From Paludibacter sp. (GTDB lineage: Bacteria > Bacteroidota > Bacteroidia > Bacteroidales > Paludibacteraceae), in the NCBI GenBank assembly GCA_027450045.1, contig DAIDKM010000017.1:1-48719 (forward strand): a stretch of DNA of 48,719 nucleotides, in the 5' to 3' direction. Within the stretch, counting starts at the first letter, position 1; the number at the start of each line of letters is the position of its first letter. The notes under the pieces are model-generated. The model ran no database searches. It was given only the letters and a program-made list of their open reading frames with translations, and was not told where the DNA came from. Made by a program: the position numbers and the translations under genes. Shown in pieces: positions 43,592-48,322 of this stretch.

Positions 43592-43663
43592 TTTTTTTAT
43601 GGCTGTGCAATGGATTGGCATAGCTGCTCTTTACTTTTGCCGTGTAAACTTAAATACCAGCAA

Positions 43664-44152
43664 ATGATGAAAACAAAAGTGCCATTCTTATTCTTTTTCT
43701 TTGTCTTGAGTTTTTACTGCTTGTTTTCCTGTAGTTTCAAGAGCCATGATAACATACAAGAAACAAATGTTCCGAACGAAAACCAACTGAATTATTTTTA
43801 CGATACGATTCCTTCTTCTATAGTTGGAACGTTGAAAATAGAAAGCTATTATGGCCCTCCCGGCTATGGAGATGCTCCCGAAACAGATGAGAGGGAAGAT
43901 TGTTATGTTTTATGTTTGGAGAATTCTATTAACTTGTTAATAAATCCAGATAACAGCGATACAGGAGTTCTTGATGTGAACAGTCTCAATAATTACAAGA
44001 TTCAGCTTGCCGCTATGGATGATGAATCAATTAACCGGCTTCATCGATACAAATACCGAAAGGTAAGAATTACCGGTACGTTTTTTGGATCCTATTCGCC
44101 CCATCATCACACCCCTGTCTTAATGGCCGTAACACACGTTGATCTGTTATAA
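43664..44152 (+). CDS. Putative lipoprotein, DUF4431-like
   Basis: The 162-residue protein starts MMKTKVPFLFFFFVLSFYCLFSCSF, a lipoprotein signal peptide with Cys near residue 23. The mature part contains GTLKIESYYGPPGYGDAPETDE, then YVLCLENSINLLI, and ends with KVRITGTFFGSYSPHHHTPVLMAV. The GPPxYG segment and the terminal GTxFGxxxxHHHTxVLM pattern resemble the DUF4431 family, small extracytoplasmic proteins of unknown function. The ATG pair at 43664 was preferred to 43610 because it puts the signal peptide at the N-terminus. No operon partner is evident; the next gene starts 150 bases on. Confidence 0.65.
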   Translation: MMKTKVPFLFFFFVLSFYCLFSCSFKSHDNIQETNVPNENQLNYFYDTIPSSIVGTLKIESYYGPPGYGDAPETDEREDCYVLCLENSINLLINPDNSDTGVLDVNSLNNYKIQLAAMDDESINRLHRYKYRKVRITGTFFGSYSPHHHTPVLMAVTHVDLL

Positions 44153-44302: not shown

Positions 44303-44788
44303 ATGAAATCAAATCGTGATCGACAAAATATCACAATTCGTGTTGCTGGTGAACGTTTGGCATTAAGCGTAATACGGGAAGATGAAGAGATATATCGAAA
44401 AGCCGGGAATAGGTTGAAAAAGAAAATTGAAGCACTGAATCAACGATACCCTACTCTTTGCGTGGACTCAATAGTTAATTTAGCGACTTTTCCTTTCGTG
44501 TTACAAATAACCAGGAACAAATTCAAAAATAAAAATGACGGCAGTTCATCCCTATTACTATATCCTCCAAAAACAGGCAATTGCTTCGATAAAGAACTTG
44601 AACAAATCTATGGTGATGCCAGAAAATTACAGAAAGAAAGAATCAGTCTCTATAATGAGCGTTACACAACAATATCATCTAATATCATTTCTAAGATGGT
44701 AGCTTATTGTTTTGCCTTTGAAATCGAGAGAAGCGAATACATGAAAAAGTTTCAAGCTGAGCATGGAGCAGCTTATTCAATTCTGTAA
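44303..44788 (+). CDS. ZapA-like protein with an internal duplication
   Basis: The 161-residue protein opens like the Bacteroidota cell-division factor ZapA: ITIRVAGERLALSVIREDEEIYRKAGNRL (residues 10-38), the small beta-hairpin then helix that binds FtsZ. ZapA is normally about 95-105 residues. Here a second segment repeats the helical part with no gaps at an offset of 72 residues: EIYRKA (29-34) with QIYGDA (101-106), NQRY (46-49) with NERY (118-121), and FVLQITR (65-71) with FAFEIER (137-143). The second copy lacks its own beta-hairpin. There is no signal peptide. It sits in an accessory stretch rather than near pheT or the usual zapA neighbours, so it may be a paralogue with a new role. 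Confidence 0.6.
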   Translation: MKSNRDRQNITIRVAGERLALSVIREDEEIYRKAGNRLKKKIEALNQRYPTLCVDSIVNLATFPFVLQITRNKFKNKNDGSSSLLLYPPKTGNCFDKELEQIYGDARKLQKERISLYNERYTTISSNIISKMVAYCFAFEIERSEYMKKFQAEHGAAYSIL

Positions 44789-44973
44789 TCAAGAGAATTT
44801 TGAGAACAAAGCGAAACAGGGACAAATGGGGTTTTGTAAGGGGTAATAACCTTTCTTGTTAAAAAATAATAACATATAATTATTATGAGAAAGAGTAACT
44901 ATGTTTGTAATACAAAATAGATTGAGCTGAGTTTATGTTCAAATTGAATTTATAACAACTAAATTATTGCAAC

Positions 44974-45726
44974 ATGAAAAATGAAAACTTTCAAAGTGGT
45001 CTAGAGCATCTTTATGCGTCATATTTAGAGTCAACATTAATAACTGATTTAAAGCAATGTGAGGAAAATGTTGGGTATGAGAAGAACCCTCCTGCGAATC
45101 CACTATTAATAAGTATTGATGAAATAGAATTTCGAGGTGCAGCTATTCGTATTATGTTTTTTGGACAAGAAACAAACACTTGGAATGGTAAGATTCAAGT
45201 TAAATGGTCGAATAATTTAAATTTATATCACCAATTTTTCAAGAATGCAATGCAGGGTCAATATAATGGGCCATTCTGGATCGGAATTCGATCTTTTAGG
45301 AAGAAACTACGTGATGAAATCAAAGATATTTCAGTTGAATTTGTATGGAACAATATTTATAAAATAGGGAATCAGAAACACAATACTAATCGTCCGACTG
45401 AAGAAATAAGGAAAATTGAAAATAATTTTTTTGATGTAATAAACAAAGAAATTGATATATTAAAACCAAATGTTTTGCTTTTTTTTACAGGCCCCAATTA
45501 TGATGCAAGAGTAAAAAAAGTATTCGATGATTTTAAGAGTGAACCCTTGTCCACAAACATTGAACAAAGAAAATTAGCAAGATTAAATTTGGCAAACAAT
45601 ATTCTAGCGTACAGAACATATCATCCTGGCTATCTTTATCGAGCAAAACATTTAAATGAATATATTGACCTTATCATTAAAGATATTGCAAAACACAAAG
45701 ATGAATTGCATGCTACAATCCTTTAG
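44974..45726 (+). CDS. Hypothetical protein with faint uracil-DNA-glycosylase-like pattern
   Basis: The 250-residue soluble protein is encoded by DNA visibly richer in A and T than the flanking core genes. I do not recognise a family. Two motifs stand out: IRIMFFGQETNTW at residues 58-70, a beta strand followed by a polar loop, and YRTYHPGYLYR at 213-223. Between them, LKPNVLLFFTGPNYDA looks like a core strand with a loop. A first strand ending in GQExN and a late His-Pro motif resemble the ordering of motifs in the uracil-DNA glycosylase superfamily, but key residues are not clearly present. A TATGTTTG element at 44900-44907 is a possible promoter. Horizontal acquisition is likely. Confidence 0.5.
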   Translation: MKNENFQSGLEHLYASYLESTLITDLKQCEENVGYEKNPPANPLLISIDEIEFRGAAIRIMFFGQETNTWNGKIQVKWSNNLNLYHQFFKNAMQGQYNGPFWIGIRSFRKKLRDEIKDISVEFVWNNIYKIGNQKHNTNRPTEEIRKIENNFFDVINKEIDILKPNVLLFFTGPNYDARVKKVFDDFKSEPLSTNIEQRKLARLNLANNILAYRTYHPGYLYRAKHLNEYIDLIIKDIAKHKDELHATIL

Positions 45727-45889: not shown

Positions 45890-46795
45890 ATGGCACAAAC
45901 TCTCTTTAATCGTTATATTTGGTTGGTGGATACTATTTACCGAGCCAAAACTATTTCGTTCGAAGAAATTAACCGGAAATGGTTACGAACTAACATGTCG
46001 GAAGGCAACCCCATTCCCAAACGTACTTTTCATAATCATCGCAATGCCATTGATGAGTTATTTGGAATCAAGATCACATGCGACAGCACGTATCATTATT
46101 CCATTGAGAATATTGATGATATAAAGAATGGAGGTGTAAGGCAATGGCTGATCAATACCTTTGCGGTGAACAATTTGATCAACGAGAGCCATAAACTGAA
46201 AGAACGGATTTTGTTTGAAGAGATTCCTTCGGGACAGCGTTTTCTGACACCCATCATTGAAGCCATGCGTGACGGAGTAACACTCCAAATGACGTATCAC
46301 TCCTTTTGGAAGGAAAATCAGGCTACGTTTGAGGTTGCTCCTTACTTTGTAAAGGTATTCAAACAGAGATGGTACGTGATCGGAGAAAGTGACTGTTTAA
46401 AGGTGTATGCTTTAGACAGGATAAAGGCGCTTGAAACGACGTCTATCCCATTTGAATTGCCGAAGGAATTTGATCCACAGGCATATTTCTATTCTTGTTA
46501 CGGCATTATCAATGATGAAACGATAAAGTCGCAAACCGTGGTGATAAAAGTGGACGCCGATCAGGCGAAGTATTTCCGGGTATTGCCGTTGCATTCTTCA
46601 CAACAAGAAATTGAAGAAAACGAAGACTATTCAGTCTTTCAATACTATATCAAGCCATTATTTGATTTCAGGCAGGAGTTGCTTTCTCATGGAGAAGATG
46701 TGGAGGTGATCTCTCCCGATTGGTTTCGCGATGAAATAAAAAGCAGTGTTGCTGCCATGCAGAAGCTCTATTCAAAAAAGCCGTTCAAAAAATGA
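45890..46795 (+). CDS. WYL-domain transcriptional regulator
   Basis: The 301-residue protein has an N-terminal helical region with a winged-helix-like layout (ISFEEINRKWLRTN, then IPKRTFHNHRNAIDELFGIKITCD). The WYL domain follows, with MRDGVTLQMTYHSFWKENQATFEVAPYFVKVFKQRWYVIGES (about residues 125-166), where RWYVIGE is the WYL-equivalent motif. A C-terminal WCX-like extension follows (VVIKVDADQAKYFRVLPLHSSQQEI). WYL proteins bind nucleotide or nucleic-acid ligands and often repress phage-defence or DNA-damage genes. It is next to the AT-rich unknown gene, with a 163-base gap and no overlap. The regulated target is not known. Confidence 0.88.
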   Translation: MAQTLFNRYIWLVDTIYRAKTISFEEINRKWLRTNMSEGNPIPKRTFHNHRNAIDELFGIKITCDSTYHYSIENIDDIKNGGVRQWLINTFAVNNLINESHKLKERILFEEIPSGQRFLTPIIEAMRDGVTLQMTYHSFWKENQATFEVAPYFVKVFKQRWYVIGESDCLKVYALDRIKALETTSIPFELPKEFDPQAYFYSCYGIINDETIKSQTVVIKVDADQAKYFRVLPLHSSQQEIEENEDYSVFQYYIKPLFDFRQELLSHGEDVEVISPDWFRDEIKSSVAAMQKLYSKKPFKK

Positions 46796-47839: not shown

Positions 47840-48322
47840 CAACGCTTTTTCTTCAGTCGATTCTATGTAAAGCATAGATGCGTTGTTTTGTTGATTTTTG
47901 ATAAATAACGAAGCTGTGCACTCCGTTTAGAAATAGTTCATATTAATGTTGTCTCAGTTCTTTGTAAAATTGGAAAAGATTTTCTGGTGCAAGCGGGTTT
48001 CTTGTTTTTTGAGTCTGTTTGAGTAGCCTGTTTCATGGCATTACCGGTATTTCAGATCAAAAAACGGGGAATACAAGATGAGCCATCAAGGAAAAACGGC
48101 TGTTTTTAGGGGAGTGAGAAATAGAAGTTTTGCAAGGATTCGGTGTAGGCATGCCAAGAAAGTGTATTTTGGCGCTATGTTTATTGAAAGAAGGGGGGAT
48201 AAAAAGGGGGCAATAGGGATAAAAAGGGGTCAAATTATAAAAAAGAAGGCATAAATATAGGATTTATAAACAAGGTGTTAGGGGGAAAATCAGGGGAAAT
48301 GGGGGTTAAAAGCAAGGATAGG
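47840..48322. other. Non-coding region upstream of the rRNA operon
   Basis: About 480 bases without a convincing gene. The left half is AT-rich and contains a small dyad, ctatg/catag, near 47864-47878. The right half, from about 48190, is strongly G-biased on the plus strand with many runs of three to six Gs, including the direct repeat described separately. The location directly upstream of rRNA promoter P1 suggests an upstream activating or structural role. Confidence 0.4.
48196..48229 (+). repeat. G-rich 14-base direct repeat with 20-base period
   Basis: gggataaaaagggg occurs at 48196-48209 and 48216-48229, exactly 20 bases apart. More G-runs follow to about 48306 (agggggaaaatcaggggaaatggggg). 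The period of roughly two helical turns places the copies on one face of the DNA. Confidence 0.6.

Follow-up and report, generated by a model that had tools for sequence, protein, structure and literature searches.

Brig1 and Brig3 belong to the uracil-DNA glycosylase (UDG) superfamily and, in the accessible parts of the two reports, act on 5hmC or alpha-glucosyl-5hmC, the base-reading residue being E147 in Brig1 and D127 in Brig3 (PMC11078745, PMC13160076). The same extracts place N50, P51, S52, R53 and E55 in the pocket of Brig3 (PMC13160076, PMC11078745). In addition, the available text of Hossain et al. (PMC11078745) gives F55 as the stacking residue and N82 as the base-reading residue of the S. 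tokodaii enzyme. A UDG domain is also mentioned in a figure legend of predicted systems within the accessible portion of the DefensePredictor paper (PMC13092281), and this domain may or may not belong to the clade presented here.

We analyzed a window of 48,719 bp, this being the whole stretch of DNA under study, which carries a UDG-superfamily gene (P0001) at 44974-45726 on the + strand. The encoded protein belongs to a clade of this superfamily, here called GQETN, whose signature consists of GQETNxW, a WNN reading head and YHP and which lacks Fe-S cysteines. No description of this clade or of a fusion between a UDG domain and PtuA was found in a literature search mostly restricted to journals outside subscription. 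The explanation that we favor, and that we regard as probable with some reserve, is that the window protein is a UDG-fold glycosylase of the GQETN clade giving anti-phage base excision in the manner of Brig1 and Brig3.

The gene and its protein family

The gene starts with ATG, encodes 250 aa and contains no internal stop. Its G+C content (0.303) and its GC3 (0.231) were both the lowest among the 47 window ORFs of at least 100 aa (mean G+C 0.415, sd 0.037; whole window, 0.409), so the difference in composition from its surroundings pointed out in an earlier note on this DNA was real. Among 61 genomes, those of 60 relatives and its own, 4 carried the gene or a homologue free of internal stops and, because of these intact homologues and of the residues conserved in an alignment of 37 sequences, the ORF goes beyond what chance would give. 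It is flanked by a ZapA-like gene (44303-44788) and by a gene encoding a WYL-WCX regulator (45890-46795). The ZapA-like gene (161 aa), which immediately precedes it, also has a low G+C content (0.354), and none of the ORFs compared from other family loci was homologous to it. Further upstream, a DUF4431 gene (43610-44152), lipoprotein-like by eye, is likewise low in G+C (0.374). Scanning of 44700-45000, upstream of the UDG-like gene, revealed no inverted repeats of at least 11 nt, and one 14-nt inverted-repeat pair with a 66-nt loop was located downstream of it. Close to the contig end, at 48196-48233, there are two copies of an 18-nt direct repeat spaced by 20 nt. Of the 7 further genomes of the genus, 4 have the metallophosphatase of the window and none gave a match to the WYL gene, a pattern that did not establish an island boundary in the window.

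Pfam and NCBIfam gave only UDG models as matches of the window protein, all of them under the cut-off: PF03167 scored 19.4 bits against a gathering cut-off of 24.3 (E 0.0012), and TIGR00758, the model for family-4 UDG, 15.8 bits against 125.3. When 29 family members were considered, PF03167 matched 15 of them at E ≤ 0.01 (best, 2.8e-7), TIGR00758 matched one at the same threshold and far under its cut-off, and three other Pfam families matched one member each, weakly. We read the low score as indicating that PF03167 may be too narrow a model for the GQETN clade. The window protein matched no PADLOC model at E ≤ 1, and its PHROG matches were weak and of unknown function (best, phrog_25945, E 0.0017). 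Searching the PDB with the single sequence yielded one chance match only, and a narrow 13-row profile (A1) yielded chance matches with no UDG among them, whereas the 29-member profile (A5) retrieved the family-4 UDG 4zbx (E 4.4e-5). Likewise, profile-profile comparison by hhalign with 14 family-4 UDGs gave a probability of 91 with the A5 profile and of only 10% with A1.

The earlier note had suggested, from the order of two motifs, that the protein recalls UDG folds, and had named structure prediction and profile-profile search as ways of checking it. The AlphaFold2 model of the window protein, built from the 13-row alignment, had a pLDDT of 85.2 and a pTM of 0.86, and its top three Foldseek matches in the PDB were UDGs (E 1.5e-5 to 1e-3). 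VIA-align superposed it on 1l9g, which we take to be a family-4 UDG, with Z 11.1 (rmsd 3.5 Å, 179 residues) and on 4zby with Z 10.7; with this program a Z under 8 may mean merely a common arrangement, and all matches cited here exceed 8. The names of 48 of the 50 matches listed identify UDG-superfamily enzymes, poxvirus D4 being included. The remaining two were 8hg1 (Z 8.9), matched through a chain of D4 length within a poxvirus polymerase complex, and 9qhs, a phage DNA polymerase (Z 9.0). Identity in the structural alignment with family-4 UDG was 13–15%. A second model, made for L031, a remote member sharing 18% identity with the window protein in alignment A7, matched 4zby with Z 12.4 (3.6 Å, 174 residues). 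In a BFVD fold search, phage UDG-like proteins appeared among the matches listed. Both models thus predict the UDG alpha/beta fold for this family and not a different one, the broader profile leads to family 4, and no confident match to an unrelated family was obtained, so the fold proposed for the gene has been upheld.

The two motifs were found in the order described, MFFGQETNTW at residues 61-70 and YHPGY at residues 216-220. Motif A, MFFGQETNTW (45154..45183, +), comprises a strand followed by the probable catalytic loop, according to conservation in 37 rows. By inspection, since motif A lies outside the part covered by the alignments with family 4, E66 appears to sit where Ung has the acid of GQDPYH. 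F101, in the FW pair at residues 101-102 (45274..45279, +), aligned with the Phe of the family-4 PFVG motif and is probably the base-stacking residue. In the WNN motif at residues 125-127 (45346..45354, +), N127 aligned with the invariant Asn through which family-4 UDG reads the base, and which precedes ILKC in the A5 alignment; the corresponding Asn of 4zbx in the A5 match is N82. TYHP at residues 215-218 (45616..45627, +) is the late His-Pro motif of the superfamily and aligned with the family-4 TYHP. Therefore, the motif set of the UDG superfamily (motif A by inspection, a reading-head Asn, Glu or Asp, and the late His-Pro) is present in the window protein.

Across the 37 aligned sequences, G64, W125 and P165 were invariant, W70, E159, F170 and P218 were conserved in 36, H217 in 35 and F101 in 32. 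The two rows without H217 are L127, whose contig ends before the His, and L129, which truly lacks it. At position 66, 28 sequences have E, two have D and seven have A, S or Q; members without the motif-A acid are the GKAVN-like clade (L030, L031, L032, L090 and L091), L088 and L128. Position 127 was N in 28 sequences, E in 6 (L014, L015, L028, L127, L063 and L090), D in 2 and S in 1. In the tree, which does not include L127, the L014/L015/L028 group, L063 and L090 lie apart from one another, and consequently the change between Asn and Glu/Asp has occurred repeatedly within the family; this change may alter the choice of base. L129 lacks both the His of His-Pro and the reading-head Asn. The loss of the acid in several members, and of His and Asn in L129, means that not all members need be enzymes.

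Distribution of the family

Homologues were searched in several overlapping samples of genomes, each count including the genome of the window. The gene was present in 4 of 61 relatives at E ≤ 1e-3 and in 2 of 8 genomes of the genus, and the wider samples gave 7 of 395 genomes for the phylum (1e-8), 9 of 395 for the class (1e-6) and 11 of 393 for the order (1e-8). A pattern scan of 84,980 species genomes recovered at least 12 loci, including one from Bacillus infantis and one from an Acidimicrobiales bin, and six plasmid records, from Arcobacter, Hymenobacter, Caballeronia and Polaromonas, also matched, so that the family spans several phyla. In the tree, the gene of genome G005 pairs with that of a Porphyromonas bin (support 100/99), and the window gene pairs with that of the Acidimicrobiales bin with a support of 93/91, below the firm-support mark of the tool; bins in the tree may be contaminated. 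The family tree departs from that of the species because tree neighbours come from different phyla. All these results evidenced a family that is rare, patchy and mobile and whose spread does not follow the species. A viral origin was also considered and rejected, as the window protein had no tblastn match among 50,697 phage records, and no relative was present among 66 pattern matches of profile A1 in viral contigs. Distant phage homologues are still compatible with these null searches.

Neighbourhoods of the family and the WYL-WCX regulator

Thirty-six non-duplicate family loci were examined by testing selected neighbours one by one. A known or candidate defence or restriction-modification gene was found nearby in at least 11 of them, a figure which is a lower bound because only selected neighbours were tested singly. 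These are BrxC and BrxB of BREX (L007); a CAP12 TIR gene (L008); a PtuA fusion and PtuB, followed by a PDC-S02 (DUF1016-like) fragment and a type IIG enzyme (L009); an N6 methylase (L029); HsdM before and HsdS after the family gene, that is, a type I restriction-modification system, and then SIR2 (L030); a nucleotidyltransferase, CD-NTase-like by our own reading, with TIR-STING, the family gene starting 15 bp after the latter (L031); a YhcG nuclease, the PADLOC candidate PDC-S02 (L032); a pAgo-type SIR2 (Aga_SIR2) beside Piwi on a plasmid (L062); a type II methylase (L091); an AAA_15 ATPase, OLD-like by our own reading, whose ORF overlaps the family gene (L129); and two GmrSD_N genes (L130). 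Some of these genes (those of L029, L032 and L091) are solitary methylases or belong to candidate families. Among the neighbours tested, no defence gene was found beside the family gene in the other 25 loci; five of these (the window, L012, L063, L087 and L125) have a WYL regulator instead, and 20, including L006, L013, L025, L088 and L089, have neither. When the proteins of at least 80 aa within 3 ORFs of the gene were compared for 28 loci (143 proteins), 372 PADLOC models were matched at E ≤ 1e-8, against 28 models for 121 proteins from 12 control stretches placed at set distances on the same contigs of six genomes only; these model counts are not independent, since a single protein can match many models. 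We interpreted the control matches, of which 25 were listed, as housekeeping relatives, for example cysteine desulfurases and helicases.

The earlier note had related such folds to defence against phages with modified DNA. This suggestion finds indirect support in the neighbourhoods of the relatives, as at least 11 of the 36 loci have a known or candidate defence gene nearby; for the window itself, the WYL-WCX regulator is the only defence-type neighbour, with no known defence system adjoining, and 20 loci have neither kind of gene.

Those 20 loci would fit an accessory role in DNA repair, in which a mobile glycosylase for uracil or damaged bases works for the host or for a plasmid, either in base-excision repair or in SOS mutagenesis, its presence in islands being due to the clustering of accessory genes. 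Translesion polymerases near three members fit this role too: umuD and a Y-family polymerase lie near the L062 gene, the L064 gene has close to it, by annotation, a Y-family polymerase together with an error-prone DNA polymerase, and a DinB-like gene read by eye lies near that of L029. However, the genome of the window encodes a separate family-1 Ung (L024), so a second repair UDG would be less needed, the family occurred in just 7 of the 395 genomes sampled for the phylum and 11 of the 393 sampled for the order, and the PtuA fusion, the TIR-STING adjacency and the position between HsdM and HsdS are not repair contexts. We therefore consider a repair role unlikely.

In L009 (9172-12668), a UDG-like domain is fused to PtuA (E 1e-40) and PtuB follows (E 4e-25). 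This fusion was counted once, because the match G830:C396 (frame of 897 aa) has the same coordinates. This arrangement is a Septu variant that we have not found described, and it suggests that in some systems the UDG module reports to an ATPase-nuclease pair. It would also suit a non-catalytic sensor, in which the UDG-like domain, on binding or flipping a modified base, leaves that base uncut and sends a signal to a partner (PtuA, an AAA ATPase or a CBASS-like pair). The L129 ORF, which overlaps that of the AAA_15 ATPase and whose protein lacks the His-Pro His and the Asn, points in the same direction, and so does the L031 clade, whose motif A has lost its acid. Against this, the window protein retains E66, N127 and H217 and has no ATPase gene adjoining, and the L009 fusion itself retains all three motifs, which leaves a sensor role for the window protein rather improbable, and base excision by it remains the reading that we prefer.

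The gene for the WYL-WCX transcription regulator (45890..46795, +) lies 163 bp downstream of the UDG-like gene. It is the only WYL match in its genome, none of the remaining 7 genomes of the genus yielded it, and its product is 55% identical to the WYL protein of L125 and 49% to that of L012. A profile of six WYL proteins matched 6 of the 36 family loci and none of the 12 control stretches, none of the six genes being further than 1.5 kb or 3 ORFs from the family gene. As a background, 99 genomes from the order contain 99 WYL matches over a total of 342 Mb. At that density, the 592 kb covered by the loci, with the window entered as 20 kb, should contain 0.17, so that the observed six represent a ~35-fold excess (P for at least six, 3e-8). 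Without the plasmid and other-phylum loci, five were observed in 30 (P 5e-7), and four when the window was also dropped (P 1.4e-5). As the idea arose from the first 28 loci, the 8 fetched later constitute a separate set, and these gave two against 0.034 expected (P 6e-4). The family is thus associated with WYL regulators, and the accessible parts of two reports describe regulators of the BrxR/CapW kind alongside defence systems (PMC9122601, PMC9122588). The WYL-WCX protein probably regulates the UDG-like locus.

Control by WYL or by another partner is also what would be expected of an abortive-infection toxin, which once triggered would excise bases from the DNA or RNA of the cell itself; the regulator present in 6 of 36 loci would then parallel the control of CBASS by CapW, as given in the available text of PMC9122588. 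But 30 of the 36 loci have no WYL gene, and among the neighbours of the 28 loci compared there was no recurring small antitoxin-like partner except a protein of about 100 aa with repeats, in three loci. On these grounds such a toxin is very improbable.

Several other neighbours were recorded. The repeat proteins of about 100 aa adjoin the UDG-like gene in L012 (5914-6225), L025 (10033-10338) and L087 (8232-8534) and are 28–39% identical, those of L012 and L025 having no Pfam match; a larger WG-repeat protein is encoded immediately downstream of the family gene in L123. In two loci of the order, L026 (7190-8848) and L126 (6903-8624), a protein of 552-573 aa with a similar start, by eye, directly precedes a D-type family gene. 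Mutually similar genes lie within 6 ORFs of the family gene in L014, L026, L027 and L087, the L014 copy being a tyrosine recombinase according to Pfam. Some candidates were left uncounted as defence. One is the ShosA-like neighbour in L028, since ShosA is DprA-like and could have a housekeeping role; the others are the PLD genes in L027 and L065, with weak ZacB/DrmC matches, and a toxin-antitoxin-like pair, by eye, in L005.

Proposed role and comparison with known systems

In the anti-phage excision that we favor, the enzyme would flip a non-canonical pyrimidine out of phage DNA and cut its glycosidic bond, so that the base would be excised and an abasic site left, and such sites would block the replication of the phage; the adjoining WYL protein would control the gene at 44974-45726. 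What the data show is the predicted fold, the conserved motifs, a patchy spread departing from that of the species and the association of the family with defence genes and WYL regulators; that the window protein excises bases, and that phage DNA is its target, we infer. N127 suggests a uracil- or thymine-type base, the edge read being presumably that of U, 5hmU or their derivatives, and a cytosine reading was placed second since residue 127 is Asn. Should this be so, the clade, which has a reading-head Asn and came mostly from Bacteroidota in searches centred on that phylum, could extend base-excision immunity to phage bases derived from uracil or thymine. The natural Asn, Glu and Asp variants of the family allow a direct comparison of specificity, and the PtuA fusion offers a way to see how a UDG module is coupled to another immune system. 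A broader and more tentative idea, which we hold as doubtful, is that of a modular UDG-fold base reader serving many bacterial immune systems, in some loci by itself under a WYL switch, in others joined to the PtuA of Septu, adjoining TIR-STING or inserted into a type I restriction-modification operon from HsdM to HsdS, and whose reading head has repeatedly switched between Asn and Glu/Asp, tracking phages from uracil-type to cytosine-type modified bases.

Comparison with family-1 Ung, as encoded by L024 in the same genome, revealed by inspection a shared strand-GQ-acid motif and a late His-Pro, but the window protein has GQETNT and YHPGYL where Ung has GQDPYH and HPSPLSA. Family-4 UDG (4zby, 4zbx) is the closest solved fold, and its WNN...K and TYHP motifs align with those of the window protein, whereas the four invariant Cys of the [4Fe-4S] cluster present in 14 family-4 proteins contrast with a single Cys among the 250 aa of the window protein, and GEAPG in family 4 with GQETN. 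With Septu PtuA-PtuB the likeness resides in L009, where the UDG-like domain is fused to PtuA and PtuB comes next, but this fusion occurs in one contig of the family only and the window gene is a standalone one. According to the accessible part of PMC13096335, tRNA-Tyr is the target cleaved by one Septu of E. coli.

Finally, Brig1 and Brig3, as far as the accessible descriptions go, resemble the family in being accessory members of the UDG superfamily. The Brigs are located in defence islands; in the family, at least 11 of 36 loci have a known or candidate defence gene nearby, and the window has a WYL regulator alone. Their reading positions in the Brigs, E147 and D127, probably correspond to N127 of the window protein, a position at which 8 of the 37 family members have E or D. 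Brigs being compared by description only, the pocket N50-P51-S52-R53-E55 of Brig3 differs from the GQETNxW found here, and none of the 37 members has a Brig3-type NPSRxE at motif A. Lastly, the bases described for Brig1 and Brig3 in the available text derive from cytosine, whereas N127 would point to a uracil-type base for the window protein.
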